Below, piece by piece: positions 966-30,411 of a DNA stretch of 64,000 nt (positions are counted from its first letter, which is position 1; the number at the start of each line of letters is the position of its first letter). The stretch lies in the NCBI RefSeq assembly GCF_900167955.1, contig NZ_FUYK01000007.1:146173-210172 (forward strand), given 5' to 3'. Under the pieces are notes generated by a model, which worked only from the letters and a program-made list of their open reading frames with translations, ran no database searches and was not told the origin of the DNA. A program made the translations under genes and the position numbers. The stretch is from Candidatus Nitrosotalea bavarica (lineage in GTDB: Archaea; Thermoproteota; Nitrososphaeria; Nitrososphaerales; Nitrosopumilaceae).

Positions 966-2240
966 ATGGCAAGTTCCAAGAACCTATTTGCACGTGCCAA
1001 AAAAATCATCCCGTCAGGTATTAACAGCCCGGTACGATATTATGATCCATATCCATTCTTTGTCAAAAAAGCCAAAGGTAGTATGATGTGGGATGTAGAT
1101 GGAAAAAATTACATTGATTACTGTAATGCATATGGCGCATTACTCTTAGGGCATGGGAGAAAAGAAATCATTTCTGACGTTAAAAAACAACTACAAAAAG
1201 GTACTCTGTATTGTGCGCCTACTGAAATTGAGGTAGAACTTTCCGAATTGATATCTCAGAATTTTCCATCTATGGAAAAAGTACGTTTGGTTAATACTGG
1301 TAGTGAAGCAACCATGACTGCAATTAGATTGGCAAGGGGATTTACAAAAAAGAAAAAAATAATAAAATTTGAGGGTTGTTATCATGGCGCACATGATTAT
1401 GTTTTGGTAAAAGCTGGTTCAGGTGCTGCACATATTGGGATATCAGTCTCGGAAGGAAGCTTGGAAGAAGTCTCTAAAAATACACTTGTAGTAAAGTATA
1501 ACAATTCTCAAGAACTACAATCATTACTGGAAAAAGAAAAGGATGTGGCTGCAGTAATTATAGAGCCAGTTCTTGCAAACATGGGTCTTGTACTACCAGA
1601 AAAGAATTTTCTAAATGAGGTACGAAAGATCACATCAGAAAATGATATTGTATTAATTTTTGATGAAGTAGTTACAGGATTTAGAATGTCTATAGGTGGT
1701 GCCCAAAAATACTTTACAATAAAACCTGATATTACTACACTTGGAAAAGCACTAGGAAATGGTTTTCCAATTGCGGCAGTAGGGGGAAAAAATGAGATTA
1801 TGGATATGCTATCTCCAGAAGGTAATGTCTATCAAGCTAGTACATATGCAGGAAATCCCATATCTGTTTCTGCAGGAGTTTCTTCTGTAAAAACCATGAA
1901 TAAACTCCAGTCCAAATTATATCCTAAACTTGAAAAGAATTGTACAAAGCTAGTTTCAGCAATCCATGATTTAGCAACAGATATGAAAATTCCACATCAA
2001 ATTAATTCTATTTCATCCATGTTTCAGATATTTTTTACCGATGATCCTGTTGTAGATTATTCTTCTGCAAAAAAAGCAGATATGATAAAATTCAAAAAAT
2101 TGTTTGAAGTGTTGCTTAAAAATGGAATTTTCATTGCGCCATCTCAATTTGAGACCGTCTTTCTATCGTATGAACACTCTAAAGATGATATACACAAAAC
2201 TATTTCTGCTTATGAAAAAGCGCTAAAAGCGGTGAAATGA
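966..2240 (+). CDS. hemL: Glutamate-1-semialdehyde 2,1-aminomutase
   Basis: PLP enzyme converting glutamate-1-semialdehyde to 5-aminolevulinate, the second step of the C5 tetrapyrrole route; HemA at 21371 supplies the substrate. The 424-residue length is normal. The N-terminus has IPSGINSPVR, a hallmark of the family, and the PLP lysine sits in TLGKALGNGFP at about residue 261. NTGSEATMTAIRLARG (cofactor phosphate region) and IFDEVVTGFR are also present. An AGGT lies just before the ATG. It is the first gene of an overlapping operon with hemC (4-base ATGA overlap), SUMT and hemD. Other class III aminotransferases are the only alternative, and the motifs and neighbours argue against them. Confidence 0.97.
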   Translation: MASSKNLFARAKKIIPSGINSPVRYYDPYPFFVKKAKGSMMWDVDGKNYIDYCNAYGALLLGHGRKEIISDVKKQLQKGTLYCAPTEIEVELSELISQNFPSMEKVRLVNTGSEATMTAIRLARGFTKKKKIIKFEGCYHGAHDYVLVKAGSGAAHIGISVSEGSLEEVSKNTLVVKYNNSQELQSLLEKEKDVAAVIIEPVLANMGLVLPEKNFLNEVRKITSENDIVLIFDEVVTGFRMSIGGAQKYFTIKPDITTLGKALGNGFPIAAVGGKNEIMDMLSPEGNVYQASTYAGNPISVSAGVSSVKTMNKLQSKLYPKLEKNCTKLVSAIHDLATDMKIPHQINSISSMFQIFFTDDPVVDYSSAKKADMIKFKKLFEVLLKNGIFIAPSQFETVFLSYEHSKDDIHKTISAYEKALKAVK

Positions 2241-3175
2241 TGAAATATCTAATTGGTACTAGGGGTAGCTTGCTTTCACTTACTCAGACAAACTGGGTGG
2301 TATCTAAGATAAAAAATAAGTCACCTCAAACAGAATTTGAGATAGTTACAATCAAAACACAAGGTGATACTGACGCACGCCCTCTTTTTACTATAAATCA
2401 AAAAGGAATATTTGAAAAGGAAATCGATAGAGCGGTTGCAGAAAAGAAAGTTGACTTTGCAGTACACAGTCTAAAAGATGTTCCTGCTGAACTACCAGAA
2501 GATTTGGTATTGGCAAGTGTTCCAAAAAGAGAAGAGGCAAATGATGTCTTTATCGCAAACGATGGGAGTACGTTGGACACAATAAAAAAGGGGGCAGTTA
2601 TTGGGACTAGTAGCTTGAGAAGGGCAGTTCAGATTATTAGACTTAGGCCAGATGTTATAGTAAAACCAATTCGTGGAAATATTGAAACAAGAATAAGAAA
2701 AGTGCATGATGGGGAATTTGATGGGGTGGTATTGGCCCAAGCTGGAATCTCAAGATTAGGGCTAGATGTTAAATTTCAGAGACTCTCCTTGGATGAATTC
2801 CCTCCTTCTCCAGGACAAGGTGCACTTGGCATTGTGTCAAGAAAAGATAATGTACAATTAATTGAATTGTTACAACAGATTGAAGATCCTGAGACTAGAA
2901 ACGCAATCGAAGCAGAAAGATCCCTCTCTAAGTTTGTAGATTCTGGATGTAGATTTCCAGTTGGAGCATTTGCTCATAAAGATAATGATCGACTAAGATT
3001 AAAAGTGATAGTCTATTCTGTAGATGGGAGCAGATCTATAATGGTAGAAAAAGATTCAGAAATAAATCAAGCAAATGAACTTGGAAGACAAGTTGCAACA
3101 GAACTTAAAGAAAAGGGAATTTCTGATATTGCAAAAAATTGGAGAGAAAAAGTAGAGGAATGGAATAGTAAATGA
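2237..3175 (+). CDS. hemC: Porphobilinogen deaminase (hydroxymethylbilane synthase)
   Basis: Polymerises four porphobilinogens into hydroxymethylbilane. The 312-residue protein starts GTRGSLLSLTQTNWV, typical of the family. It contains the catalytic-loop region VHSLKDVPAELP, the conserved FPPSPGQGALGI, and Cys238 in DSGCRFPVGAF, the site that binds the dipyrromethane cofactor. Two adjacent ATG codons (2237 and 2240) could be used; the first gives the ATGA overlap with hemL that recurs in this operon. The gene overlaps SUMT by 4 bases, so the enzymes are probably translationally coupled. Confidence 0.97.
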   Translation: MMKYLIGTRGSLLSLTQTNWVVSKIKNKSPQTEFEIVTIKTQGDTDARPLFTINQKGIFEKEIDRAVAEKKVDFAVHSLKDVPAELPEDLVLASVPKREEANDVFIANDGSTLDTIKKGAVIGTSSLRRAVQIIRLRPDVIVKPIRGNIETRIRKVHDGEFDGVVLAQAGISRLGLDVKFQRLSLDEFPPSPGQGALGIVSRKDNVQLIELLQQIEDPETRNAIEAERSLSKFVDSGCRFPVGAFAHKDNDRLRLKVIVYSVDGSRSIMVEKDSEINQANELGRQVATELKEKGISDIAKNWREKVEEWNSK

Positions 3176-3912
3176 CAGGAAAAGTTTTCATTGTTGGAGC
3201 AGGCCCTGGAGATCCAAAACTTATCACACTAAAAGCTGTTGAAGCGATTAAATCCTCAGATGTAGTTCTGTATGATAGGCTAGTAAGTAAGAAAATAGTT
3301 GCAATGATTCCAAAAAAGGCCGAAAAAATGTATGTTGGAAGAGATGTTGGCGACGATTACAAACATCAAGATACAACAAATGATTTGATGGTAAAATTTG
3401 CTAAAAAAAATAAAAATGTCGTGAGATTGAAAGGAGGAGATCCCTTCATCTTTGGACGAGGAGGCGAAGAGGCAGAATTCCTAAAACAACACAAAGTCAA
3501 ATATGAGATAATTCCTGGTATCACATCTGGTATTGGATCTGCCGAATACTCTGGAATACCTCTTACACACAGAGACTATGCATCTTCTGTAGTGTTTGTT
3601 ACAGGTCATGAGGATGCCAAGAAAAAAGAAGGAATAGTTGACTGGAAGAAACTTGCAAAAGCGGTTGACACTATAGTGATCATGATGGGTCTATCACGAC
3701 TTGAGATAATATCAAAGAAATTGATTAGTGGAGGACTTGACAAAAGTACCCCGGTGGCTGTAATTCAAAACGGAACTACTGATGAACACCGATTGATAAA
3801 AGGCACTCTTTCAAATATATCGAAAAAAGTAAGTGATGCAAAAATTAAACCTCCGACTATTATTATAGTAGGCAAGGTAGTAAATCTCTCTGATAAAATA
3901 GGGTGGAGATGA
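3172..3912 (+). CDS. cobA: Uroporphyrinogen-III C-methyltransferase (SUMT)
   Basis: SAM-dependent methylation of uroporphyrinogen III at C2 and C7 to give precorrin-2, the branch point to siroheme, Ahb-type heme and cobalamin. The 246 residues show the full family pattern: VGAGPGDPKLITLKA at the N-terminus, DVVLYDRLVS, the SAM-site motif GGDPFIFGRGGEE, PGITSGIGSAEYSGIPLTHR and a C-terminal PPTIIIVGKVV. It lies between hemC and hemD with overlaps on both sides. It is a single-domain enzyme; the dehydrogenase partner of the trifunctional CysG is encoded separately at 20721. Confidence 0.95.
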   Translation: MTGKVFIVGAGPGDPKLITLKAVEAIKSSDVVLYDRLVSKKIVAMIPKKAEKMYVGRDVGDDYKHQDTTNDLMVKFAKKNKNVVRLKGGDPFIFGRGGEEAEFLKQHKVKYEIIPGITSGIGSAEYSGIPLTHRDYASSVVFVTGHEDAKKKEGIVDWKKLAKAVDTIVIMMGLSRLEIISKKLISGGLDKSTPVAVIQNGTTDEHRLIKGTLSNISKKVSDAKIKPPTIIIVGKVVNLSDKIGWR

Positions 3913-4706
3913 TGATACAAGGAAAAGTTATTGCTATTACCAGATCAAAAGATGATTCAGAGGAATTCACACAATTAATATCTGACGCAAAAGCAAAAGC
4001 AATATCACTACCAACAATAGAGTTGGTAAGTAAAGGCAATGATATGGTAGATGAATTTCTTGATGCTATCAAGATCGATGATCCGGATTATTCTGTATTT
4101 ATGAGCTCAAAGGCAGTCAAACTTTTGTTTGATACTGCAAAGAAAATTTCAAAATATGAGAAACTTCAGCTTGCTGTTGCAAATACTACGGTGATTGCAG
4201 TGGGACCAAAAACAAAATCTGCTCTAGAATTGGAGGGGATTAGAGTATCACACGTTCCAGATAGGTTTTCATCAGTTGGAGTAGGAGAAGTCTTTACCAC
4301 TCTAAATGCTGAAGGAAAAAAAGCAATTATCCCAAGAAGTGGTGCATCAACACCATTTCTTGCACAACTGCTAGAAAAGATCGGACTTAAGGTAAAAGAA
4401 GTCTATCTATACGATGTCAAATCTTCCAGTGCATTATCTTATTGGGTGGAATTCAAAGAACTTTTTTCGCAAAATAAAGTTGATGGAATTATTTTTACTA
4501 GTGCATCATCAGTTAGAGCATTTTTTGATATAATGTTATCTGATTATGACGAAAAAACTCTAAAGCAACACTTGGGAAAAACTACTATTATTGCAATAGG
4601 ACCATTCACTGCTGATGAGCTTAAGAAATTTGAGGTAAAACCCATCACTGCAGATGTACATACAGTATATGGTGCAGTAGAATCAATCAAGAATTGCTTT
4701 TGTTAG
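3909..4706 (+). CDS. hemD: Uroporphyrinogen-III synthase
   Basis: Cyclises hydroxymethylbilane with inversion of ring D. HemD is poorly conserved, so the call rests on the two-domain Rossmann-like layout, VIAITRSKDDSEEF at the N-terminus, SSKAVKLLF, VIAVGPKTKSALELEGI, FTSASSVRAFF and IIAIGPFTADELKK, and on its place after hemC and SUMT. Start choices are ATG 3909, ATG 3912 or a GTG at 3903. ATG 3909 overlaps the SUMT stop as ATGATGA and has GGTGGAG just upstream. The operon appears to end here, as a new TATA-like element (ttttaataac) precedes the next gene. Confidence 0.93.
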   Translation: MMIQGKVIAITRSKDDSEEFTQLISDAKAKAISLPTIELVSKGNDMVDEFLDAIKIDDPDYSVFMSSKAVKLLFDTAKKISKYEKLQLAVANTTVIAVGPKTKSALELEGIRVSHVPDRFSSVGVGEVFTTLNAEGKKAIIPRSGASTPFLAQLLEKIGLKVKEVYLYDVKSSSALSYWVEFKELFSQNKVDGIIFTSASSVRAFFDIMLSDYDEKTLKQHLGKTTIIAIGPFTADELKKFEVKPITADVHTVYGAVESIKNCFC

Positions 4707-4741: not shown

Positions 4742-5932
4742 ATGACAGAAAGTAACTTGAGTATAATCCAGAAAGAGGTATTAATCAGTAGGAAACGTTC
4801 TCTTTCCATCGTTATTCCTACCTATAATGAATCTAAAAATATTGTAAAAATACTTGATTCTTTGCGTTCAGCACTAACACGAGAAATGAATGCTGAAATA
4901 ATAGTGGTTGATGATAATTCTCCTGACGGTACAAGTAACACTGTTGAAGAGTATGTAAAAAACTCCAAAAATCCTAGTTATTCTATCCAGATAATTCGTC
5001 GTGAGGACAAGAGAGGATTAAGCTCTGCTATTGTAACTGGTATAGAACATGCTAAAGGCGACGCAGTAGTTGTTATGGATAGTGATCTATCTCACCCTCC
5101 ACAAACTATCCCACAAATGGTAGAAGAATTACAAAATTCTGATTGCGATATAGTGGTAGCATCAAGATATGTGAAAGGTGGCTCTGTCTCAGGTTGGCCA
5201 TTTAAAAGAAAATTAATCAGTAAAGGAGCTACCAAGATTGCTCAACATGGACTTGGAATAAAGATCAAAGATCCCATGTCTGGATTTTTTGCATTCAAAC
5301 GCCATATTGTAAATAATATCAAATTTGATGCAATTGGATATAAAATACTACTTGAGATTCTTGTAAAAGCACGAGGTGCAAAAGTCAAGGAAATTCCTTA
5401 TAATTTCATCGACCGTACCACGGGTTCAAGCAAGATGGATTTTTCAATATGTGTTGATTATTTACAATCTGTATGGAGACTATATCGATATGGAAAATCT
5501 GTAAAAACAAATGAAAGACGTACATCTGTTCATTTCTTATCCAAAGCTGGAAGATTTTACACCGTCGGTGCTTCTGGATTGTTGGTAAACTATTTTGTCT
5601 CTTTTATGTTTGGAGCTGTACTTTCCAATCTTTGGTATATCTATGCTACCATGATAGGAATTGTTTTCTCAATGAGCTCTAATTTTATTCTCAACAAGAT
5701 CTGGACATTTGAAGATAGAAACTTTGATACAAAAAGAACACTTGCGCAATATGGATTGTTCCTTGGCTTTAGTGGTATTGGAGCAGTCTTTCAATTGTTA
5801 TTGGTTTATGGTCTAGTTGAATTGAGACACTTGAATTACTCTATTGCATTATTCTTAGCAGTTGCTATTGCATCAGTAGGAAACTTCTTACTAAATAAAA
5901 AATGGACCTTCCAAGAAAAAGTTTGGAGTTAG
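4742..5932 (+). CDS. Dolichol-phosphate mannosyltransferase-like GT2 glycosyltransferase fused to GtrA-type membrane domain
   Basis: Residues about 15-250 form a family 2 glycosyltransferase: SIVIPTYNESKNI at the N-terminus, VVDDNSPDGT, the metal-binding VVMDSDLSHPP (DxD-like) and KDPMSGFFAFKR. The C-terminal roughly 125 residues hold four hydrophobic segments of GtrA type ending in NFLLNKKWTF. This arrangement is seen in archaeal and bacterial DPM1-like enzymes that charge polyprenyl phosphate with a sugar for protein N-glycosylation or lipid-linked glycan assembly at the cytoplasmic membrane. The sugar cannot be told from sequence. A TATA-like ttttaataac lies about 26 bases before the ATG, suggesting a leaderless transcript. 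Confidence 0.9.
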   Translation: MTESNLSIIQKEVLISRKRSLSIVIPTYNESKNIVKILDSLRSALTREMNAEIIVVDDNSPDGTSNTVEEYVKNSKNPSYSIQIIRREDKRGLSSAIVTGIEHAKGDAVVVMDSDLSHPPQTIPQMVEELQNSDCDIVVASRYVKGGSVSGWPFKRKLISKGATKIAQHGLGIKIKDPMSGFFAFKRHIVNNIKFDAIGYKILLEILVKARGAKVKEIPYNFIDRTTGSSKMDFSICVDYLQSVWRLYRYGKSVKTNERRTSVHFLSKAGRFYTVGASGLLVNYFVSFMFGAVLSNLWYIYATMIGIVFSMSSNFILNKIWTFEDRNFDTKRTLAQYGLFLGFSGIGAVFQLLLVYGLVELRHLNYSIALFLAVAIASVGNFLLNKKWTFQEKVWS

Positions 5933-6019
5933 ATACGCAACCGTTACATAAAATGGTCTAAAATGATCGAAAAATAATTTTTAATTTTTCTTTAATCCTA
6001 TTGTATAAACAACTTCTTG

Positions 6020-6058
6020 TTCTAAATTATTAGAATGAATTCTCTTAGCTGGTCCTAA
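6020..6058. promoter_or_regulatory. Paired palindromes upstream of sufBDSU, shared with sufC
   Basis: Two inverted repeats stand side by side: TTCTAA-ATTA-TTAGAA (6020-6035) and TTAG-CTGGTC-CTAA (6045-6058). In transcription orientation the first matches the sufC upstream region (28755-28770 complement) in 16 of 17 bases including the following T, and the second has the same TTAG-N6-CTAA layout and the same order relative to the gene. An AT-rich element (tatttttatt, 6061-6070) follows at once and could be the TATA box of the suf operon. The TTAG-N6-CTAA form is reminiscent of DtxR/IdeR-type iron boxes; that assignment is an inference. Confidence 0.55.
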
Positions 6059-6094
6059 TCTATTTTTATTTTCTTGATATTGTTTAGCTTGGCC

Positions 6095-6126
6095 TACTCC
6101 GCTATACGAGTGTGAAGCGTGGTGTA
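6095..6126 (+). promoter_or_regulatory. Possible hairpin in the sufB leader
   Basis: In an otherwise AT-rich spacer the segment 6091-6128 is GC-richer. TACTCCGCT (6095-6103) can pair with AGCGTGGTGTA (6116-6126) as nine base pairs with two bulged U residues and a 12-base loop. If transcription starts downstream of the AT box at 6061-6070, this hairpin would sit in the 5' UTR of sufB. A second TATA-like stretch (ttttttataat, 6129-6138) lies downstream of it, so a shorter transcript is equally possible. No known riboswitch class was recognised. Confidence 0.3.
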
Positions 6127-6150
6127 ACTTTTTTATAATATAACGGGGTT

Positions 6151-7560
6151 ATGAAATATATGACTTCTGAGAATCTTAACATGGATTATAGTAAATATGA
6201 TTTCAAAGACTCTACTGAGATGTATGTATACACCAGTAAAAAGGGTCTGTCCAAGGAAGTCGTTGAAGAAATAAGCAGAATGAAAGGCGAACCACAATGG
6301 ATGCTTGACTTTAGACTTCGTTCATATGACATCTTTATGAAAAAACCCATGCCAAACTGGGGAGGCTCTCTTGGCCAAATTGATTTTAATAATATTTACT
6401 ATTATGCAAAAGCTTCTGAAAAAACAGAAAAGGATTGGGACAATGTTCCAGCTGAAGTAAAGGCAACATTTGATAAATTAGGAATTCCTGAAGCTGAAAA
6501 GAAATTCCTAGCAGGTGTAGGTGCTCAATACGAATCCGAAGTTGTTTATCATCATCTCAGAGAAGATCTTGCAAAACAAGGTGTACTATTCCTAGATACT
6601 GATACTGCATTAAAAGAGCATCCTGAAGTCTTCAAAAAATATTTTGGTAAAGTAATACCACCTGAAGATAACAAGTTTGCAGCACTCAACAGTGCAGTGT
6701 GGAGTGGAGGATCTTTCATCTATATTCCAAAAGGAGTTAAAGTAGATCTGCCATTACAAGCATACTTTAGAATCAATAAAGAAAATATCGGTCAATTTGA
6801 AAGAACTCTTATAATTGCAGATGAAGGTGCAGAAGTACATTACATCGAAGGTTGTACCGCTCCTGTATATTCTTCAGAATCTTTACACTCTGCAGTTGTA
6901 GAATTGATTGCTATGAAGGGCGCAAAATTAAGATACACTACAATTCAGAATTGGAGTAACGATGTTTACAATCTAGTTACAAAGAGAGCATATGCATACG
7001 AAGGTGCACGTGTAGAATGGATTGATGGAAATATTGGAAGTAAATTGACAATGAAATATCCTGGAATCTATCTTCTAGGTCAACGTGCACACGGAGAAAC
7101 GCTTTCTATTGCATTTGCTGGTAAAAATCAACATCAAGACACAGGTGCAAAAATGGTACATCTTGCTCCAAATACAACATCTAGAACAACATCCAAATCC
7201 GTAAGCAAAAATAATGGAAGAACTACCTATCGAGGTCTCTTACATGTAGCAAAGGGTGCAACCAACGTCAAGGCCTCCGTTAGATGTGATGCCTTGCTAT
7301 TAGATGACATATCAAAGACTGATACTTATCCATATATGGAAATCAATCAGGAGGATGCAACAGTAACTCATGAGGCAACTGTTGGTAAGATTGGCGATGA
7401 GCAAATTTTCTATCTTATGACAAGAGGATTCACTGAGGAAGAAGCACTTACACTTATTGTAAATGGATTCATTGAACCGTTTACCAAAGAGCTTCCAATG
7501 GAATATGCAGTAGAGCTTAACAGACTAATTAAAATGGAAATGGATGGCTCAGTCGGCTAG
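6151..7560 (+). CDS. sufB: Fe-S cluster assembly scaffold SufB
   Basis: Core scaffold subunit of the SufBC2D complex that builds iron-sulfur clusters in the cytoplasm. The 469 residues carry the typical SufB body: [16 protein letters not shown] near the N-terminus, [31 protein letters not shown] (conserved Cys region) and the C-terminal [17 protein letters not shown] and [23 protein letters not shown] 6151 or ATG 6160 may be the start; GGGG at 6145-6148 is better placed for 6160. First gene of sufB-sufD-Rieske-sufS-sufU; the ATPase sufC is 20 kb away at 27916. Confidence 0.96.
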
Positions 7561-7588: not shown

Positions 7589-8989
7589 ATGTCATCTTTT
7601 GTTCTCTCTAAACTTGGCTCTAATCATATAGAAGAAATTTCTGAAGTAAATAATGATCCTGCATGGTTAAGAGAATACAGAAAGAGTGCTTTTACAATGT
7701 TTCAACAACTTCCACAAGAAGTCTCTCCTCTTTACAACAAGTACAGCGATGCAAACAAGATGGATCCAGAACAGATCACATTTTCTTTAAGTTCTGATAG
7801 TACTATTCCAGATTTTGTAAAAGACAGATTATTAGAAATTGGTGAAAATCCAAGCATAGTTCAGATTGGAACAAATATTCATAAAATTACTATTCCGTCT
7901 GAGTTAAAGGACAAGGGTCTTGTGATATGTTCAATCCAGGATGCAATAAAAAATCATGGTGACAAGATAAAAAAATCATTTGAACAAACGGATTCAAAGA
8001 GAGATAAATATATTGCACTAAACAATGCTTTTTTCAATTCTGGAATTTTTATCTACATTCCAAAAAATCTCATTTTGGAAAAAACAATTCATGTCGTGTC
8101 CTCACTCTCACTAGATCAAACTTCAACAATATCTCGTAATGTTATAGTGGCAGAGGAAAATAGCAAGGCGTCAATTGTTCAAGAGATCTATGCTCCACAG
8201 GCCACAAAACAACAAGCGTATCTTGAATTGTTGGACATATCAGTAAGTCCTAATAGTCAATTTGACTTGGTTACACTCCAAGCAATGGATGAAACAGCTA
8301 TTAATTTCTCTTCAAGAGTGGCAAGAATAGAGCGTGATGGGAGAATGAACTGGTATCTTGGATTGTTTGGTTCACATCTTTCAAGATACAAGATAGATAA
8401 TTTTCTTAATGGTCCTGGAGCAACTGCACGAGATACTGAAGTGGTTTTTGGAAACAAGAATCAATCATACGATCTCGCTTCAAATTTAATTCATAATGCC
8501 CCCTCTACAATTGGTAGAGTTTTAGAAAAATCTGTTCTTAAAGATACCGCAAAATCCCTCTTTAAGGGAATGATACGAATTGAGAAAGATGCACATCATG
8601 CAGAATCCTATCTTTCAGGACACTCTATCTTATTGGACAAGGGAGCAAAGTCAGATTCTATACCAGGGCTTGAAATATTTACAAATGATGTCAAGGCGAC
8701 ACACTCTGCCTCAGTAGCTCAGATGGATGAGGAACAGATCTTTTATCTTGCCACAAGATGCTTGAGCAAATCCGATGCTCAGAAAATTATAGTGGAAGGA
8801 TTTCTTGAACCTCTTTCGAGAAAAATGTCATATCAGGTTCGTGCATGGATAAGTTACCTAATAGATTCCAAGTGGGCAGGACGCAATTTGACTATCAAGA
8901 CAGACGAACAACTCAAAGCTATGCTTGAAGTTGAAGAAACAAGATATCGTGAAACTGATACATTTGAAAGTCATTACAAATACAGGTGA
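7589..8989 (+). CDS. sufD: Fe-S cluster assembly protein SufD
   Basis: Second scaffold subunit of the SufBCD complex, a paralogue of SufB. The 466-residue protein has the short N-terminal PAWLREYRKSAFTMF motif, the central beta-helix region (YIALNNAFFNSGIFIYIPKN) and the C-terminal SufBD signature ATHSASVAQMDEEQIFYLATR followed by EGFLEPLSRKM. It lacks the Cys-rich GCTAP segment seen in the upstream SufB, as expected for SufD. It lies 28 bases after sufB, and the next gene begins 4 bases after its stop. Confidence 0.93.
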   Translation: MSSFVLSKLGSNHIEEISEVNNDPAWLREYRKSAFTMFQQLPQEVSPLYNKYSDANKMDPEQITFSLSSDSTIPDFVKDRLLEIGENPSIVQIGTNIHKITIPSELKDKGLVICSIQDAIKNHGDKIKKSFEQTDSKRDKYIALNNAFFNSGIFIYIPKNLILEKTIHVVSSLSLDQTSTISRNVIVAEENSKASIVQEIYAPQATKQQAYLELLDISVSPNSQFDLVTLQAMDETAINFSSRVARIERDGRMNWYLGLFGSHLSRYKIDNFLNGPGATARDTEVVFGNKNQSYDLASNLIHNAPSTIGRVLEKSVLKDTAKSLFKGMIRIEKDAHHAESYLSGHSILLDKGAKSDSIPGLEIFTNDVKATHSASVAQMDEEQIFYLATRCLSKSDAQKIIVEGFLEPLSRKMSYQVRAWISYLIDSKWAGRNLTIKTDEQLKAMLEVEETRYRETDTFESHYKYR

Positions 8990-8993
8990 GATC

Positions 8994-9305
8994 TTGTCTA
9001 ATTGGATAAATGTTTGCAAATTAAATCAGCTAAAGAAAGGTGAGATGATTGACTTTGATTATGAAGACAAGAAGATCTTACTTGCAAATCTAGACGGAAA
9101 GCTATATGCCTCTGACAGAATATGTACTCATGCAGATGCCGACCTTTCAACTGGAATACTAACTGAAGAGGGCGTAACATGTCCATTACATCTCTCAACT
9201 TTTAATCTAAAGACGGGTGTACCAGCGAACCTTCCTGCCGAAATACCATTAAAAATCTACAATGTTAAAATAGAACAAAACGAGATCTACATCGAGGTTA
9301 ATTAA
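8994..9305 (+). CDS. Rieske [2Fe-2S] ferredoxin-like protein
   Basis: Small Rieske-type electron carrier of 103 residues. The ligand boxes are CTHADADL and CPLHLSTF, giving the Cys-x-His and Cys-x2-His pattern. I place the start at TTG 8994 because AGGTGAG (8984-8990) directly precedes it. An upstream ATG at 8925 in the same frame would overlap sufD by 65 bases and add residues not typical of the family. Such proteins usually serve as the ferredoxin subunit of oxygenases; inside a suf operon it may carry electrons or act as a cluster acceptor, which is inference. Confidence 0.88.
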   Translation: MSNWINVCKLNQLKKGEMIDFDYEDKKILLANLDGKLYASDRICTHADADLSTGILTEEGVTCPLHLSTFNLKTGVPANLPAEIPLKIYNVKIEQNEIYIEVN

Positions 9306-9306
9306 T

Positions 9307-10551
9307 TTGCAAACAAGTTTTATAAATATTGAAAATATTAGAAATGATTTTCCAATTCTAAAAAGAAAGGTGCACAAGGATAAACCACTTGTTTATCTTG
9401 ATAATGCTGCTACTACTCAAAAACCTATTCAAGTAATTGATGCCATCAGCAATTATTACCTAACTTACAATTCCAATATACACAGGGCAGTTCATGAACT
9501 TGCTGAAGAGGCAACACTGGCATATGAAGCAACAAGAGACAAGGTAGCAAAATTCATCAATGCAAAAAATCGTGAAGAAATTATCTTTGTTAGGGGAACT
9601 ACTGAGGCAATCAATCTTGTTGCTTATGCATGGGGAAGACAGAATGTTAACAAAGATGACATTATCGTAACTACGGAATATGAGCATCATAGTAACATAG
9701 TTCCGTGGCAACTTTTGGCAAAAGAAAAAGGCGCAAAACTGGAATACATTGGAGTAGATGACGACGGGGATCTGATTCTTGATCATCTGGATAAATATCT
9801 CCAGACTGGCAAGGTAAAAATTGTAACATTTAGTCAAATGTCTAATGTTCTGGGAACAATAACAAACTCTGAGGAGATTGTCAATAGGTGCAAAAAATAT
9901 GGTGTGCGAGTATTAATTGATGGAGCACAATCTGTTCCACATCTTAAAGTTGATCTCCAAAAACTTGACTGCGACTTTTTTGCTTTTTCTGCACACAAAA
10001 TGCTTGGTCCTACTGGAGTAGGGATCCTTTGGGCGCGAAAAGAATTACTTCAAGAGATGGTTCCATTCAACGGTGGAGGAGATATGATACGTGAGGTTCA
10101 CAAGTATGAGACAACATGGAATGATCTTCCATACAAGTTTGAAGCAGGAACTCCTAACATTGCAGATGTAATAGGATTTGCTGCAGCGATAGACTATCTT
10201 GATAGAATAGGTATGGACAAGGTACGTGAACATGAAATGGAGTTGACAAAATATGCATTGGATAAACTTTCTCAAATGAAAGGAATAATTCTATACGGTC
10301 CAAAGGACATAACAAAACGAGGTGGTGTTATTTCTTTTAACTTGGGAGATATACACCCACATGATCTTGCTACTATAATTGACGAAGACGGAATTGCCAT
10401 ACGTTCCGGTCATCATTGTGCACAGGTCTTGATGGAAAGATTAGATGTATCTGCAACATCTCGCGCAAGCTTTTATATCTATAATACAAAAGAAGAGATA
10501 GATGTTTTTGTTAAATCCCTTAACAGAGCAAAGGAATTGTTTAGGATATGA
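9307..10551 (+). CDS. sufS: Cysteine desulfurase SufS
   Basis: Class II cysteine desulfurase that supplies persulfide sulfur for cluster assembly. The 414 residues include YLDNAATTQKP, the PLP lysine at about residue 231 in FSAHKMLGPTGVG, and the active-site Cys at about 371 in RSGHHCAQ, the normal SufS motif. The start is TTG 9307, one base after the stop of the Rieske gene; no nearby in-frame ATG would keep the N-terminal helix. The 4-base overlap with sufU (ATGA) suggests the desulfurase and its sulfur acceptor are made together. Confidence 0.96.
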   Translation: MQTSFINIENIRNDFPILKRKVHKDKPLVYLDNAATTQKPIQVIDAISNYYLTYNSNIHRAVHELAEEATLAYEATRDKVAKFINAKNREEIIFVRGTTEAINLVAYAWGRQNVNKDDIIVTTEYEHHSNIVPWQLLAKEKGAKLEYIGVDDDGDLILDHLDKYLQTGKVKIVTFSQMSNVLGTITNSEEIVNRCKKYGVRVLIDGAQSVPHLKVDLQKLDCDFFAFSAHKMLGPTGVGILWARKELLQEMVPFNGGGDMIREVHKYETTWNDLPYKFEAGTPNIADVIGFAAAIDYLDRIGMDKVREHEMELTKYALDKLSQMKGIILYGPKDITKRGGVISFNLGDIHPHDLATIIDEDGIAIRSGHHCAQVLMERLDVSATSRASFYIYNTKEEIDVFVKSLNRAKELFRI

Positions 10552-10988
10552 GTAGTGCTGATATTTACAGAGAGATAATACTTGATTATTACAGAAATCC
10601 GAGAAATTATGGTAAGATACAAGATCCGGATATTTCTCAACGAGATAGTAATCCTCTTTGTGGTGATGAACTAGAAATGCACATTAACATAAAAGATGAT
10701 AAAGTTGCAGACGTGAAATTCACAGGAAAAGGATGTGCCATAAGCCAGGCAAGTGCATCAATGCTTACAGAGCTTATTATGGGCAAAGATTTTGAATATG
10801 TGAAAAAACTTACAAAAGACGATATTCTTGATAATTTAGGACTTCATGATCTTGGACCTGCTAGAATAAAATGTGCTTTATTATCATTAAAGGTTCTCAA
10901 GTCTGGACTCTATTCCTATATTGTTGACAAGCTAAAAGATACTACATCAGCAGATCAGATAAAAGAACAAGCCTCAGGTCTTTACTAA
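10548..10988 (+). CDS. sufU: SufU/IscU-type Fe-S scaffold or sulfurtransferase
   Basis: The 146-residue protein has the three conserved ligand cysteines of the IscU/SufU family: NPLCGDE near residue 38, GKGCAISQAS near residue 65 and RIKCALLSLKVLK near residue 119. The N-terminal YREIILDYYRNPRNYGKI is the family signature. Next to sufS it most likely accepts persulfide from SufS and passes sulfur to SufBCD. The sequence does not decide between a SufU zinc-dependent role and an IscU scaffold role. Confidence 0.93.
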   Translation: MSSADIYREIILDYYRNPRNYGKIQDPDISQRDSNPLCGDELEMHINIKDDKVADVKFTGKGCAISQASASMLTELIMGKDFEYVKKLTKDDILDNLGLHDLGPARIKCALLSLKVLKSGLYSYIVDKLKDTTSADQIKEQASGLY

Positions 10989-10989
10989 A

Positions 10990-11328
10990 TTGGCTATCCC
11001 GAGTGTGGCGCTACCGCTCCAGATAAGAAAAATTATTTTTGAAAAATTTAATGACGTTAATCTGAGATTTACAAACGATGAAATCTTTGAATTGCTTAAA
11101 ACAGATGGCCTAGATCCTTCTCTCACAATTGATGATGTAGAACAATACTTTAATCAATTACGTGATGGTGGTTTAATCAGGCAGATTGCTCAGAACTTTA
11201 CTACTAATCATTACAAGCTCTTCGATGTGGTAGAGAAAATAAAATGTAATTCATGTAACCTAGAAATTTACTTGGGAAAAATGGAGCCTCGAGTTTGTCC
11301 TAACTCTGAGTGTAAGGCAACTATTTAG
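10990..11328 (+). CDS. Winged-helix-like protein with C-terminal zinc ribbon
   Basis: A 112-residue protein starting at TTG one base after the sufU stop. Residues about 20-80 look like a winged-helix fold (FTNDEIFELLKTDGLD, VEQYFNQLRDGGLIRQIAQNF). The last 30 residues hold CNSC and CPNSEC, a four-cysteine zinc or metal knuckle. I do not recognise a named family. Its place as the last gene of the suf operon suggests a regulator that senses metal or clusters, but that is inference. The 3' end overlaps the tail of convergent pgk by 8 bases. Confidence 0.75.
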   Translation: MAIPSVALPLQIRKIIFEKFNDVNLRFTNDEIFELLKTDGLDPSLTIDDVEQYFNQLRDGGLIRQIAQNFTTNHYKLFDVVEKIKCNSCNLEIYLGKMEPRVCPNSECKATI

Positions 11329-19618: not shown

Positions 19619-20653
19619 TTATACAGTAATTGGATCTTCTATGTTAAATTCGTGTTCAACAAAGTATTCTACTCTTGTTTTCTTGAATTCTCTTGAACTA
19701 AAAAGAATCTTGTAATCGTTAACCTCTACCTGCTTCTGGATTTGTTTTGCCATCTCTTCTGCATCTGCGATTGATTTACAATGTACCATGGAAAATACAC
19801 TGTATGGCCAGTCTGGATATACTGGTCTTTGATAGCAATGACTTATCTGCGGAAAGGCACCAAGTTTTTCTCCAACTTCCTCAATTCTTTCATCTGGAAC
19901 TTTCCATACTATCATACCGTTTGCAGTAAAGCCTACTTCCCTATGTCGTAAAATGGCTGCAAATCTTCGCATGACTCCTATTTCTTCATATTTTTTTACC
20001 TTTTCGAGGAGTTGCTCTTCAGTTATTCCAAGTTTTTGAGAAGATTTTAAAAACGGTCTTTCAATTATCTCTAAATCTTTTTGTAACTCACGTATGTAGT
20101 TTTTTTCTTCTTCAGTTGCAATAAATTTTGTTTCTGTAATTTTCTTTTTTTCTTCAGATGGTTTGACATCTGATTTCTTTTCTTCTACCATCTCAAGCTT
20201 TACTCCAATCTTAAATAATTTTATAGTAGGAAGTAGTCTTGTTTTTTTAATTCCTGGTAACTTGGAGAATTTATCTATCTCTGTTTTTAGATCAGCTCCT
20301 GGGGGAACTGCTAGAGTAAACCAAAGATTGTATTCGTGATTTCTCTCATAATTGTGAGATACGCCTGGATGTCTGTTTACTTGATTTGCAACATAATCTA
20401 ATTTTTCTGACTCGATTGCCATTGCAACCAATGCACTCTTGTATCCTAACTTTCTTGTATCAAATATTGCGCTAATCTGTCTGATTATTCCTGCATCTTT
20501 GAGGACACGAAGTCTCTGCATCATATCCTGATCTGATAATCCAAATTTCTTTGCCATTTCCATATATGGTTTTGGTGTTAAAGGGAAAGTCCACTGGATC
20601 TCATTTAGAATCTCTTTGTCCAGATTATCCATGATAAATGCAAAGTCTACCAT
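19619..20653 (-). CDS. ahbAB: Siroheme decarboxylase, AhbA and AhbB fused in one chain
   Basis: A 344-residue protein built from two homologous Lrp/AsnC-like units of the NirDLGH/Ahb family. Unit 1 (about 1-150) has LDKEILNEIQWTFPL and the signature SHNYERNHEYNLWFTL. Unit 2 (about 195-344) has ISHCYQRPVYPDWPYSVFSM and the closing SSREFKKTRVEYF. A Lys/Glu-rich linker joins them. AhbA/B convert siroheme to 12,18-didecarboxysiroheme. ATG 20653 or ATG 20632 may be the start; a TATA-like attaaaaatg (20657-20666) fits a leaderless start at 20632. It is divergent from precorrin-2 dehydrogenase. An ordinary Lrp regulator is the alternative, but the signature motifs favour the enzyme. Confidence 0.88.
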   Translation of the reverse strand: MVDFAFIMDNLDKEILNEIQWTFPLTPKPYMEMAKKFGLSDQDMMQRLRVLKDAGIIRQISAIFDTRKLGYKSALVAMAIESEKLDYVANQVNRHPGVSHNYERNHEYNLWFTLAVPPGADLKTEIDKFSKLPGIKKTRLLPTIKLFKIGVKLEMVEEKKSDVKPSEEKKKITETKFIATEEEKNYIRELQKDLEIIERPFLKSSQKLGITEEQLLEKVKKYEEIGVMRRFAAILRHREVGFTANGMIVWKVPDERIEEVGEKLGAFPQISHCYQRPVYPDWPYSVFSMVHCKSIADAEEMAKQIQKQVEVNDYKILFSSREFKKTRVEYFVEHEFNIEDPITV

Positions 20654-20720
20654 TACAATTAAAAATGTTGCCTAGATTCCCATAGAATCTATAAATATCA
20701 TCCAAAGTCAGCGTGATTGA

Positions 20721-21374
20721 TTGATAGTTGATCTGAATCTTAGGGGAGATTTGGTAATTATAGTAGGTGGAGGAAATGAGGGCCTAAAAAAAGTAAATAC
20801 TCTTTTAACACAAGATTGCAAAATTCTTCTTATCAGTGATTCAACTAATAGGCAAATCCAAAACTATGTCAAACAAAAAAAAATATCTTTTAAACAAATG
20901 AAACTTGATAATGCAAATTTCCTACAAAAATATAAACCGTTTATGGTATTAGCTACAACAAACAATAAAGAACTTAATCGTAAAATTGTAGTACAAGCAA
21001 AGACGATGCGTTGTTATGCATATGCTTCCGATGATCCCGAAGTGAGTGATTTTGCATTTGGATCTGTAATTAACATCGCTGATACTGTACAAATCGCAAT
21101 ATCAACAGGAGGTCGAAGTCCTGCCATGGCAAGGAAATTAAAAATACAGGCCGAGCAAGTCTTTAAAAAATTAATTAAAAAAGAAGATATTTACCATATA
21201 AAACTACAAGATTTTGCCAGAAAAGCCGCCAAAGCAAAGATCTCTACCTTTCCTGAAAGAAGGAAGTTTCTCTACGGTGTTATGAATGACAATCATGTTA
21301 AACAATTAATACAAGATGGAAATCTAAAAAAAGCACAGAAGCGGGTTATGGAAATGCTAGGTGATCTAATCTGA
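20721..21374 (+). CDS. Precorrin-2 dehydrogenase / sirohydrochlorin ferrochelatase
   Basis: Oxidises precorrin-2 to sirohydrochlorin and, in Met8p-like members, inserts iron to form siroheme. The 217 residues have the NAD-binding VIIVGGGNEGLKKVNTLL, FMVLATTNNKELN, a central AYASDDPEVSDFAFGSVI and the family motif ISTGGRSPAMARKLK. TTG 20721 is the start; tctataaatatc about 26 bases upstream suggests a leaderless message. It receives product from SUMT (3172) and feeds AhbAB. Its last codons overlap the CTG start of hemA. Confidence 0.92.
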   Translation: MIVDLNLRGDLVIIVGGGNEGLKKVNTLLTQDCKILLISDSTNRQIQNYVKQKKISFKQMKLDNANFLQKYKPFMVLATTNNKELNRKIVVQAKTMRCYAYASDDPEVSDFAFGSVINIADTVQIAISTGGRSPAMARKLKIQAEQVFKKLIKKEDIYHIKLQDFARKAAKAKISTFPERRKFLYGVMNDNHVKQLIQDGNLKKAQKRVMEMLGDLI

Positions 21375-22627
21375 CAAGTGATGTAATCAACGCTAGAGTT
21401 ACTTTTAGAAAATCGCCTATTCATATGCTTGAAAGATTCACTTTTCGAGATGTAGATTCTGCTTATGAATCATTTTTGAGACATTCTGGATTACAAGAAT
21501 GCGTCATACTACAAACTTGTAATAGAGTTGAACTCTTTGGTTGTACTGTTACTACTGATCTTGAAAAAATAAAAAAAACATGGGCATCTGTTGCAGGACT
21601 AGAAGAAAATGCGTTTAAAGATAATCTTGAGATAAGCAAAGGAATTGATGCATATGCTCATTTACTCAAGCTCACATCTGGACTTGATTCTCTTGTAATA
21701 GGGGAGGAACAGATACTTGGCCAAATAAAAGACTCTATCAGCACTGCTCGCGGACTAAAGGCCTCTGGAGATAATCTCAATACTTTGTTTGACAAGGCAA
21801 TTAGAGTTGGTTCTCGTGTACGTCAGGCAACTGGAATTGGAAAGGGTAGTATCTCTGTTGGTTCCATGGCAGTAAATCTTGCAGAAGAAAATGTTGATGA
21901 TTTAAAATCAAAACATATTTTGTTAATTGGAACTGGAGAAGCAGCAAGTTTAGTTGCAAAATCCCTCAAAAAACGAGAAATTAATTTTCTTGTTACTAGT
22001 AGAACATTTGAACGTTCAAAAGCTTTTGCTGAAACTGCAGGCGGAATACCGATACCATTTGATGAAGCTACCTCTAATTTCAAATCAATCGATGTACTGT
22101 TTGTAGCCACAGTCGCGCCATATTTTCTTGTTACATATGATAGAGTAAAGGAAGCAATGGAATCTGGTAAGGATGGTATGCTCATAATGGATCTTTCTAA
22201 TCCTAGAACTGTGGATGATAAGGTTGGAACTATTGATAAAATCAAAGTTATGAACATGGACCAGATTGCACAGATGGTAGATAAGAATATGCAGACTAGA
22301 ATGGGAGTTGTATCATCAGCAGAACAAATTATTAATGAAGAGCTTCCTGTAGTAGAAGCAGCGATGAAGAGACTTGAAGTTGAACCAATCGTCACTAATG
22401 TATTCAAGGAGATAGACCAAGCGCGAGTCAAAGAACTAAAGAAGGCTCTTCAAATGCTAGGCGAAAAAGATGCACAAAAAATACGAATTATTGACCAACT
22501 TACTCAGGCAATAGTTGAAAATATCATGTCAATTCCTATGAATAATCTAAGAAAAGCCTCAGAACAAGGTGATTCTGAAATTCTAAAAACTGTCACAAAA
22601 CTCTTTGATTATAAGACCAGAGAGTAA
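21371..22627 (+). CDS. hemA: Glutamyl-tRNA reductase, CTG start
   Basis: Reduces glutamyl-tRNA(Glu) to glutamate-1-semialdehyde, the first committed tetrapyrrole step. The catalytic Cys lies in LQTCNRVELF; also present are SGLDSLVIGEEQILGQI and a NADPH domain with LLIGTGEAASLVAKSL. The first ATG (21425) would remove the conserved first strand. The frame upstream encodes SDVINARVTFRKSPIHMLER, as in other HemA proteins, and has no ATG, GTG or TTG. CTG 21371 is preceded by AGGTGAT (21359-21365) with 5-base spacing and overlaps the upstream TGA as CTGA, so I take it as the start (418 residues). Confidence 0.9.
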   Translation: MTSDVINARVTFRKSPIHMLERFTFRDVDSAYESFLRHSGLQECVILQTCNRVELFGCTVTTDLEKIKKTWASVAGLEENAFKDNLEISKGIDAYAHLLKLTSGLDSLVIGEEQILGQIKDSISTARGLKASGDNLNTLFDKAIRVGSRVRQATGIGKGSISVGSMAVNLAEENVDDLKSKHILLIGTGEAASLVAKSLKKREINFLVTSRTFERSKAFAETAGGIPIPFDEATSNFKSIDVLFVATVAPYFLVTYDRVKEAMESGKDGMLIMDLSNPRTVDDKVGTIDKIKVMNMDQIAQMVDKNMQTRMGVVSSAEQIINEELPVVEAAMKRLEVEPIVTNVFKEIDQARVKELKKALQMLGEKDAQKIRIIDQLTQAIVENIMSIPMNNLRKASEQGDSEILKTVTKLFDYKTRE

Positions 22628-22661
22628 CAAATTATATTGCTAAAAAAAGGTATTTTATCTA

Positions 22662-23642
22662 ATGTCTTTTCCTAATTTAAGACTAAGACGTCTTAGAAAA
22701 ACTGGTAAAATTAGGGAGCTTTTAGAAGAAGTAAGACTTTCCCCAAAGGATCTAATATGTCCAATTTTTGTCCAAGAGGATCTAAAATCAAAAATCCCTG
22801 GTAGTTCAATGCCTGGCATGGAGAGACTTGCGTTATCTGATGTGACAAACGAAGTAAATTCAATTGCAGAATTGAAAATTCCGGCAGTAATGGTATTTGG
22901 AATACCTACTCAGAAAGATGATCACGGTACATCAGCTTTTACCCCGAATGGAATCGTACAAAAAACAATTTCTGAAATTAGAAAGAATCTTGGAAATGAT
23001 ATTGCGATCATGGCTGATGTTTGTCTTTGTCAGTATACTAGTTCTGGTCATTGTGGGCTCGTTAAAGGAGATAAGATAGATAATGATTCCAGTCTTGAAA
23101 CATTGGCAAAAATTGCAGTAAGTCAAGCTCAATCTGGGGTAGATGTCGTATCTCCTTCTGCTATGATGGATGGACAAGTAAAAGCAATAAGACAAGGTCT
23201 GGATGATGCTGGTTTTCACGATGTTGCAATAATGTCACACTCTGCAAAACATCGCTCTTCATTATATTCTCCTTTCAAAGATATGGCACATTCTGCTCCA
23301 CAGTTTGGAGATAGAAAGACCTACCAATTACCATACACTAATCCAAAAGAAGCCATGCGTGAAGTTGAAACTGACATACAAGAAGGTGTAGACATTGTTA
23401 TGATAAAACCCGCACTTGCCTATCTTGACTTGATCTATAGGACTAAAGCAAAATTCAACATACCTATAGCTGCATACAGCGTCTCAGGAGAATATGCTCT
23501 AGTCAAGGCGGCAGCTATGGCAGGATATGTTGATGAAACAGAGGTGACACTTGAAATTCTTACTGCAATCAAACGTGCTGGCGCAGATATGATAGTAACA
23601 TATTTCTCAAAGGGTGCAGCAAAAGCACTTAATCAGAGATGA
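22662..23642 (+). CDS. hemB: Delta-aminolevulinic acid dehydratase (porphobilinogen synthase)
   Basis: Condenses two 5-aminolevulinates to porphobilinogen. The 326-residue protein has the N-terminal RLRRLRKTGKIRELLEEVRL and CPIFVQEDL, zinc-type ligands in DVCLCQYTSSGHCG (three Cys, so a zinc rather than purely magnesium enzyme), the first active Lys in MSHSAKHRSSLYSPFKD and the Schiff-base Lys in VMIKPALAYLD. It follows hemA after 34 bases and overlaps the next gene by 4 bases. Confidence 0.97.
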   Translation: MSFPNLRLRRLRKTGKIRELLEEVRLSPKDLICPIFVQEDLKSKIPGSSMPGMERLALSDVTNEVNSIAELKIPAVMVFGIPTQKDDHGTSAFTPNGIVQKTISEIRKNLGNDIAIMADVCLCQYTSSGHCGLVKGDKIDNDSSLETLAKIAVSQAQSGVDVVSPSAMMDGQVKAIRQGLDDAGFHDVAIMSHSAKHRSSLYSPFKDMAHSAPQFGDRKTYQLPYTNPKEAMREVETDIQEGVDIVMIKPALAYLDLIYRTKAKFNIPIAAYSVSGEYALVKAAAMAGYVDETEVTLEILTAIKRAGADMIVTYFSKGAAKALNQR

Positions 23643-27915: not shown

Positions 27916-28692
27916 TTATTCTGTAGTTTCTTGAATTCCAAGCCACGCATAGCCTTTCTGTTCCAATTCATCGGCAAGCTCTTTTGGACCTTCTTTGATC
28001 ATCTTTCCTTGTGCCATTACATGAACAAAATCAAGCTTGTCTAGGAATTTTAGAATTCTTGCATAATGGGTGATGACAATTACTGTGGCATCTTTTCTTG
28101 AGACTGAACTGATGGCTTTTGCTACTGCTTGTACTGCATCAATATCTAAACCTGAATCTGGTTCATCAAGAATGGATATTCTTGGCTGTAATACTGCCAT
28201 CTGTAAAACCTCTGATCTTTTTTTCTCTCCACCCGAAAATCCTTCATTGAGGTATCTTGATAAGAAATCATGTTTTAGTCCTACTTCATCAAGATTTTTC
28301 TTCAGATAGTTTTGAAATTCTCTGACTGTAAGAAAAACTTCTCTTTTTTCATCTCCAAGTGACTTGCTTAATGCATTGTATGCCGTTCTTAGAAAATGTG
28401 AGTAACCTACCCCCGAAACTTCTGTTGGATATTGAAATGCCAAGAACAATCCTTTCTTTGCTCTTTCATCAGGGGAAAGACCAAGTATACTTTCTCCATC
28501 TAGTAAAATATCTCCTTTTGTAACTTCATACTTTGGATGACCTAAAATCGTATATGATAAAGTACTCTTACCAGATCCGTTTGGTCCCATGATGGCATGA
28601 ACTTCGCCTGGACCTGTTTTGAGATTTACTCCCTTGAGAATTTCTTTACCGTCTCTTTGTACGTGAAGATCTTTAATCTCAAGTGTTGCCAT
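27916..28692 (-). CDS. sufC: Fe-S cluster assembly ATPase SufC
   Basis: ABC-type ATPase that binds SufB and SufD and drives cluster assembly. The 258 residues contain Walker A GPNGSGKST, the SufC-specific signature FSGGEKKRSEVLQM, Walker B ISILDEPDSGLDID and the switch His in VIVITHYARIL. It is transcribed alone, about 20 kb from sufB/sufD, unlike the usual contiguous suf operon. A TATA box (ggatatataag, 28713-28723) is about 26 bases before the ATG, so it is probably leaderless. Confidence 0.96.
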   Translation of the reverse strand: MATLEIKDLHVQRDGKEILKGVNLKTGPGEVHAIMGPNGSGKSTLSYTILGHPKYEVTKGDILLDGESILGLSPDERAKKGLFLAFQYPTEVSGVGYSHFLRTAYNALSKSLGDEKREVFLTVREFQNYLKKNLDEVGLKHDFLSRYLNEGFSGGEKKRSEVLQMAVLQPRISILDEPDSGLDIDAVQAVAKAISSVSRKDATVIVITHYARILKFLDKLDFVHVMAQGKMIKEGPKELADELEQKGYAWLGIQETTE

Positions 28693-28733
28693 TATCTTTA
28701 CAAGATGATTTTGGATATATAAGCTAACAAAAA

Positions 28734-28771
28734 ATTAGCTAGCGCTAATTCTAATTCTAAGAATTTAGAAT
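28734..28771. promoter_or_regulatory. Paired palindromes upstream of sufC, shared with sufB
   Basis: ATTAGC-TAGC-GCTAAT (28734-28749) stands about 10 bases upstream of the sufC TATA box and is followed by ATTCTAA-GAAT-TTAGAAT (28754-28771). The second repeat, read in sufC orientation, matches the site at 6020-6036 before sufB in 16 of 17 bases. The order relative to the start codon is the same at both loci, with 6- and 9-base spacers. The position next to the TATA box fits a repressor or activator operator. Confidence 0.6.
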
Positions 28772-28900
28772 GATCTTATCATACGTAAGTGATTCAAAAT
28801 GTATCTTACTGACTACTGATTGTCTTTGAATGATTTGTATTTGGTGTATGTTGGAGAGGTTTTCCAAGTGTTGTGGCATTCTTGGCGTAATATGTTTACA

Positions 28901-29464
28901 CTATCTTTCTTTAGTCTTCAGATGATTCTTAAAGGAAAACAGCATCACTGAAAAATTAAACTCCTTTGTGGTTAAAGGTATGTGGATTGATTTTGAAGAC
29001 AATGCCATGATTCTAAAAATAATTCTTACACATTCGTGTCGGAAAAATTCTATTGAACGATGTGTCAAGACGAATGCCTTTTTCTCTATTTTGTCACTGT
29101 ATTCAAACAAGGTTGGTTCGTACTTGAGATAATAAAAGAAGATTATTCTTACATATTTTACATACCTGTGATCTATTTTATAGCAAAGAAAATTTAGCCA
29201 ATCTAGAAAACTATCTTTTTCATATTGATGACTTTTATTCATGGTGTGATATTTTGTTGCGTCGTTTACCCTGGTATATGAGCTATTTTTTACACGTAGG
29301 GTATGATACGCCTCGGCTATCATTTTGAATTTTACACCGTCTTTTGCAGATGTATTTTTGTCAGGATGATATTCTAAGGCAAGTCTACGATATGCATCCT
29401 TTATCTCATTTATGGGTGCGCCTTCGCTCACGCCAAGTAATTTGTAACACTGACTACTGTCCAA
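28901..29464 (-). CDS. J-domain (DnaJ-like) protein
   Basis: A 187-residue protein whose first 60 residues are a J domain: CYKLLGVSEGAPINEIKDAY, RRLALEYHPDKNTSAKDG with the essential HPD, and KMIAEAYHTL. There is no Gly/Phe region or zinc-finger domain, so it is a type III co-chaperone. The C-terminal 110 residues are rich in aromatics and basic residues and unlike any domain I know. The start is TTG 29464. The J domain implies stimulation of an Hsp70-type ATPase, with the C-terminus giving specificity. Confidence 0.85.
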   Translation of the reverse strand: MDSSQCYKLLGVSEGAPINEIKDAYRRLALEYHPDKNTSAKDGVKFKMIAEAYHTLRVKNSSYTRVNDATKYHTMNKSHQYEKDSFLDWLNFLCYKIDHRYVKYVRIIFFYYLKYEPTLFEYSDKIEKKAFVLTHRSIEFFRHECVRIIFRIMALSSKSIHIPLTTKEFNFSVMLFSFKNHLKTKER

Positions 29465-29537
29465 TGATTAGATATTACTTGATCCGTTTTAATAAAGTTT
29501 GATCGCATTTTTCTTGGTATATTTGTAAACTAGAATC

Positions 29538-30293: not shown

Positions 30294-30411
30294 TTATTTT
30301 TCAGAGATATTTATGTATTAGTTAACAAAGTTCTTGATGCTAGAACCTTTCAATTTTCTTACTGCTTAATCCTTTTTCCTATGATGATTTTACAGTCTTT
30401 GGTCTTTAGTA

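Follow-up and report, generated by a model that had tools for sequence, protein, structure and literature searches.

The promoters of the two suf loci in this Nitrosotalea genome share a palindromic site, motif B, with genes for metal uptake, and this shared site points to a metal sensor of the DtxR family that would couple the assembly of Fe-S clusters to metal supply. We consider it probable, judging from sequence patterns and their distribution, that a metal-activated DtxR-family protein acts on suf and on uptake genes through B, and that two other palindromes, A and C, serve as further operators. The sites link Fe-S assembly with Nramp and ZIP transporters and with a multicopper oxidase. 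In the open-access literature, to which our search was confined, we found no regulator or operator described for SUF in ammonia-oxidizing archaea. A, B and C are short, testable DNA targets, and two candidate proteins are named.

Palindromic sites upstream of sufB and sufC

We analysed a stretch of 64,000 nucleotides (the window) from a genome of Nitrosotalea, a genus that also includes Ca. Nitrosotalea devanaterra and several MAGs. Patterns were defined as TTCTAAN4TTAGAA for A and TTAGN6CTAA for B and were searched in 37 Nitrosotalea genomes, whose kinship means that the counts are not independent events, though the flanking DNA differs between genomes. Copy numbers for the source genome (G000) come from the same kind of pattern search, and dinucleotide shuffles, with means of at most 0.37, gave the background for counts in upstream regions. 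Proteins at the suf loci were identified by TIGRFAM profile scores, others as stated for each gene (Table 1). Comparison with relatives favoured 6160 over 6151 as the start codon of sufB.

Table 1. Genes and promoter elements of the suf loci in the window
Feature	Position	Strand	Remarks
Motif A at sufB	6020-6035	+	TTCTAAATTATTAGAA; palindrome
Motif B at sufB, distal copy	6045-6058	+	TTAGCTGGTCCTAA
B-like site at sufB, proximal copy	6084-6097	+	TTAGCTTGGCCTAC; most conserved sufB copy; missed by the sequence-only reading
TATA box of sufB	6130-6139	+	TTTTTATAAT; conserved in relatives
Motif C at sufB	6140-6152	+	ATAACGGGGTTAT; between TATA box and start codon; absent from the sequence-only reading
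sufB	6160-7560	+	TIGR01980, 722 bits
sufD	7589-8989	+	TIGR01981
Rieske-type ferredoxin gene in suf operon	8925-9305	+	Identity read off sequence; position conserved
sufS	9307-10551	+	TIGR01979
sufU	10548-10988	+	TIGR01994
Gene for a four-cysteine winged-helix protein, at the end of the suf operon	10990-11328	+	Candidate regulator
sufC	27916-28692	-	TIGR01978, 317 bits
TATA box of sufC (TTATATA)	28716-28722	-	Distance to B exactly 12 bp in 29/29 loci
Motif B at sufC	28735-28748	-	TTAGCGCTAGCTAA
Motif A at sufC	28755-28770	-	TTCTAAATTCTTAGAA; lineage-restricted

Reading towards the gene, A comes first and B next at both loci, which lie 22.7 kb apart. The palindromes reported by the sequence-only reading are present where it had placed them, with 16 of 17 bases matching in the first repeat, A; the gap between A and B measures 9 bp upstream of sufB, against 6 bp upstream of sufC. 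Only two copies of A without mismatch exist in the window, namely these two. The search in relatives that the same reading had called for found the exact pair A-N(2-14)-B 14 times across the 37 genomes, against 0 matches for a reversed-pattern control, and all 14 lie upstream of sufB or sufC, at a distance of about 150 bp at most, as judged by their positions relative to the sufB and sufC hits. Such a distribution is far from chance. Loose matching was uninformative: in the window, A with up to three mismatches was found 94 times where 91.7 were expected, which is chance level, and B, allowing one mismatch at most, fell below expectation (32 against 39.8). An Rfam search of positions 5900-6300 returned no match and hence no known RNA element there. 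Taken together, the patterns support the view that the sites at suf behave as operators.

The near identity of A at two loci of one genome might also suggest a mobile repeat or a local duplication as the source of the shared pair. Yet the two loci have only the palindromes in common, not their flanks or spacing; B extends well outside the genus, A varies independently of it, and the occurrence of B without A contradicts such an origin, to which we assign a negligible probability.

The proposal that A and B form a single operator pair was not borne out. In Nitrosotalea, A was found in 24 of 28 upstream regions of sufB and in 7 of 29 of sufC, and B in 25 of 28 and 29 of 29, respectively, far above the numbers from the shuffled sequences. 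B stands without A at sufC of most relatives, at Nramp, and throughout the other Nitrosopumilaceae. Conversely, A stands without B at the ferredoxin promoter of the ferredoxin/PpiC region, where 24 of 26 sequences carry A and none carries B. We therefore reject a single, fixed A-B unit; their separate distributions suggest independent inputs that happen to adjoin at suf.

Motif B and the DtxR-family proteins

By its distribution, B is a separate and deeply conserved predicted operator, older and wider than A. At sufC its distance from TTATATA is a constant 12 bp in all 29 Nitrosotalea loci, and B recurs there in 21/21 further Nitrosopumilaceae genomes, where TTAGGATTAGCTAA is the usual form; one of these genomes bears the label Nitrosotalea. 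Seven Nitrososphaeraceae genomes had no B at sufC; their sufC promoters carry C or C-like sites, or neither. At sufB, the proximal copy TTAGCTT(A/G)GCCTAC is nearly invariant across Nitrosotalea, and B-like sites occur in 38/38 sufB promoters of other Nitrosopumilaceae, mostly in tandem and 1-2 bp apart. The proximal copy of Nitrosotalea appears to lie about 21 bp, or two helical turns, further from the TATA box than its counterparts in those other genomes.

The source genome has 18 exact B sites, eight of which are located in six promoter regions: two at Nramp, two at a divergent ZIP/winged-helix pair, and one each at the multicopper oxidase, in the intergenic region between an ABC transporter and argininosuccinate synthase, at sufB and at sufC. 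The remaining sites lie in ORFs, in apparent rRNA, or between genes with no clear link to metals. B was found at 27/30 Nramp promoters, in 18 genomes as tandem sites 5 bp apart and 2 bp from the TATA box, and at 30/30 ZIP promoters, in 27 of them 2-3 bp downstream of TATA. In the ZIP region of the source genome (L126, 1114-2395; G000:C11, about 123600-124900), the ZIP gene is divergent from a small gene for a TrmB-like winged-helix protein, and their intergenic sequence holds two B sites, each just downstream of one TATA box; in most relatives A lies between them.

The fixed distance between B and TATA at sufC could also be expected if the palindromes were core-promoter or structural features that serve no dedicated regulator. 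However, B follows the TATA box at ZIP and is on that account no promoter element, variation falls in its centre and spares the symmetric arms, and 8 of the 18 exact copies in the genome sit at suf, Nramp, ZIP, multicopper oxidase and ABC promoters. We regard a purely structural role as very improbable.

The likeness of TTAG-N6-CTAA to the iron boxes of DtxR-type regulators, pointed out in the sequence-only reading, gained support from this recurrence at Nramp, ZIP, the multicopper oxidase and the ABC operon. The revised consensus for IdeR/DtxR is the 14-bp sequence TTAGGNNNNCCTAA (PMC8464063). It is matched by the ZIP and multicopper oxidase copies TTAGGCAAGCCTAA, and TTAGG-N4-CCTAA is found in full in one ZIP copy and in the copy at the multicopper oxidase; the suf and Nramp copies retain TTAG-N6-CTAA but differ at positions 5 and 10. 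Like the actinobacterial IdeR/DtxR box, B is a 14-bp inverted repeat at metal-uptake promoters in genomes that encode a DtxR-family protein. Unlike it, the putative sites described here belong to archaeal promoters, have looser inner bases (TTAGC/TTAGA, GCTAA) and would include SUF among their direct targets. As a putative DtxR-type operator, B is well supported.

Its regulator had been supposed to lie outside the window, and Fe-type and Mn-type DtxR homologues were indeed found elsewhere in genomes of the genus. The C-terminal domain of the family, PF02742, exceeded its cut-off in 35/37 genomes, with two such proteins per genome in most and two in the source genome. These archaeal proteins measure about 145-150 aa and are too short for an SH3-like domain. 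The Fe-type paralogue (gene G000:C12:86837) has Met..Cys..Glu-His ligands in the sequences VEMYL and VCGIEH, residues that correspond to the primary-site set of DtxR known from the literature; at the ancillary site the His found in DtxR is missing, the sequence being R-N-S-R versus R-K-H-R in SloR. The MntR-type paralogue (C15), when aligned to 6kta and 1on1, displays the full set of Asp, Glu, His, Glu, Glu and His. Its best PDB match is MntR 6kta (E 6e-28), and it scored 133 bits against PRK03902, slightly under the cut-off of 138. In four genomes (G006, G013, G023 and G026) its gene is divergent from Nramp. As a point against the DtxR reading, no clear B site was seen upstream of either DtxR gene in the loci read.

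Rrf2-type IscR and RirA jointly control Fe-S assembly and iron uptake. Nitrosotalea resembles these systems in the joint control proposed here and differs in that its 37 genomes contain no Rrf2 protein over the family cut-off; the weak matches fall on the HTH of the Fe-type DtxR protein. An Rrf2-type regulator was rejected on this ground.

B is not uniform, ending in ...CCTAA at sufB and ZIP and in ...GCTAA at Nramp and most sufC promoters, so that two proteins may share it. Alternatively, the MntR-type paralogue alone might bind B, and suf would then follow manganese, or a mixture of Mn and Fe, rather than iron. The position of the MntR-type gene, divergent from an Nramp gene with B upstream, is consistent with this reading, as is the ...GCTAA form common to sufC and Nramp. 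Against it stand the ...CCTAA copies at ZIP, multicopper oxidase and sufB, which are nearer to IdeR boxes, and the equally wide occurrence of the Fe-type paralogue; a manganese rule for Fe-S assembly would, moreover, be hard to rationalise. We consider sole control by the MntR-type protein unlikely. The pair itself resembles the known control of mntH by MntR in the protein with its full ligands, in the Nramp target and in the divergent arrangement of some genomes, and differs in that the operator is the DtxR-like TTAG-N6-CTAA.

We infer the binder of B, its metal and the sign of control as follows. A DtxR-family regulator activated by metal would have B as its operator, most likely the Fe-type paralogue at suf and the MntR-type paralogue at Nramp. 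On uptake promoters the metal-loaded regulator would repress, as suits a site that abuts or directly follows the TATA box. At sufC and sufB, B is located just upstream of BRE/TATA, which from the anatomy of archaeal promoters is an activator-like position, and we lean slightly towards the metal-loaded protein turning suf on, rather than off, when iron is plentiful. Both repression and activation are known in the DtxR family (PMC13001254; PMC8464063), and in C. diphtheriae DtxR activates ferritin from a site adjoining the core promoter (PMC13001254). Streptococcus mutans SloR offers a parallel as a DtxR-family protein that affects suf, but in that species the protein was not seen to bind the suf promoter directly (PMC11631912), which counts against a direct reading of B. 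The Nramp and ZIP families of Nitrosotalea reportedly entered by lateral transfer (PMC5767755), and an older regulon may thus have taken control of transporters gained more recently.

Motifs A and C and the winged-helix protein of the suf operon

Motif A is, from its predicted sites, a feature of Nitrosotalea that marks the sufB, ZIP and ferredoxin/PpiC promoters and only some sufC promoters, which it may link as a second operator under another factor. It was present at 26/30 ZIP loci, in 25 of them 11 bp from TTTAAAT. The TrmB-like winged-helix protein encoded next to ZIP was considered as the binder of A, with evidence pointing both ways: two ZIP loci without its gene (L215 and L216) are also without A at ZIP, but A persists elsewhere in both genomes. 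At sufC of many relatives, the stretch that would hold A is coding sequence, where the upstream gene ends with KDKVDKEL or a similar sequence at the C terminus of its product. In the window this gene (30412-30939) sits 1.7 kb away and A is present, which suggests a connection between A at sufC and a rearrangement of the upstream region. The intervening stretch, 28772-30412, contains a J-domain gene and a gene for a small secreted protein; in many relatives the 30412-30939 gene directly precedes sufC.

Motif C (ATAACN3GTTAT) occurs at sufB as ATAACNNNGTTAT, which begins at the end of the TATA box. The source genome has just four copies: that at sufB, one at the second ferredoxin gene (G000:C15:14806), one in the ABC/argininosuccinate synthase promoter region (G000:C9:31465) and one inside an ORF. 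The third of these regions, which also carries a B site (L128 and L353; G000:C9, about 31465-31520), is shared by the ABC operon and the argininosuccinate synthase gene. The sufB copy was found in 27/28 Nitrosotalea, as AACN3GTT in 34/38 other Nitrosopumilaceae, and as AACN3GTTAT in 17/17 Nitrososphaerales-type loci outside Nitrosopumilaceae; it is thus retained across the class Nitrososphaeria. Variants of C are found at the first ferredoxin gene, and in several Nitrososphaeraceae the sufC promoter carries C or a C-like site. C may be a third operator, probably that of a repressor reporting Fe-S status.

The gene at 10990, named as a candidate regulator in the sequence-only reading, proved to close a sufB-sufD-Rieske-sufS-sufU operon that is conserved throughout Nitrosopumilaceae and at several Nitrososphaera loci. 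This makes it a fair candidate, but nothing ties it to any particular site, and its product is not DtxR-like. Three cysteines of the protein are invariant and the fourth nearly so. The predicted structure (mean pLDDT 75.5) consists of a winged helix and a small strand-rich tail, and a fold search gave Fur-type proteins (Fur/PerR/Zur) as best matches, with a TM of 0.5. This resemblance is confined to the fold: Pfam FUR matched 1 of 32 members of the family, and hhalign gave a probability of 0.8 against E. coli Fur. We therefore rejected the identification as Fur; the product matches no known family above cut-off. We regard it as a candidate Fe-S or metal sensor.

Such a sensor, encoded in the operon like SufR, might itself read the suf sites, be it A, B or C, in which case B at suf would be no DtxR site. 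Its conserved place in the operon, the predicted winged helix with its Fur/PerR/Zur-like fold, and the class-wide conservation of C across the operon start all speak for this reading. B, however, also occurs at transporters unlinked to the 10990 gene, and the protein is not Fur by sequence, with a model of only modest mean pLDDT. We hold this explanation to be improbable, and prefer a DtxR-family protein at B.

The comparison with SufR of cyanobacteria and actinobacteria is apt in that a winged-helix protein is encoded with suf and that C, at the start of the operon, would suit such a repressor; the difference is that the 10990 product matches no established family above cut-off. A more speculative scheme, which we put forward as a rather doubtful possibility, would have three signals converge on the SUF promoters of ammonia-oxidizing archaea. 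Metal would be read by a DtxR-family protein at B, Fe-S status by the 10990 product at C, and a lineage-specific regulator would act at A; the 10990 product would then represent an undescribed family and be the archaeal counterpart of SufR.

Finally, tetrapyrrole genes flank the suf operon in two blocks, at 966-4706 and 19619-23642. Their names, mostly read from sequence, include hemL-, hemC-, uroporphyrinogen methyltransferase- and synthase-like genes, a gene for a siroheme-decarboxylase-like AsnC protein, and hemA- and hemB-like genes.
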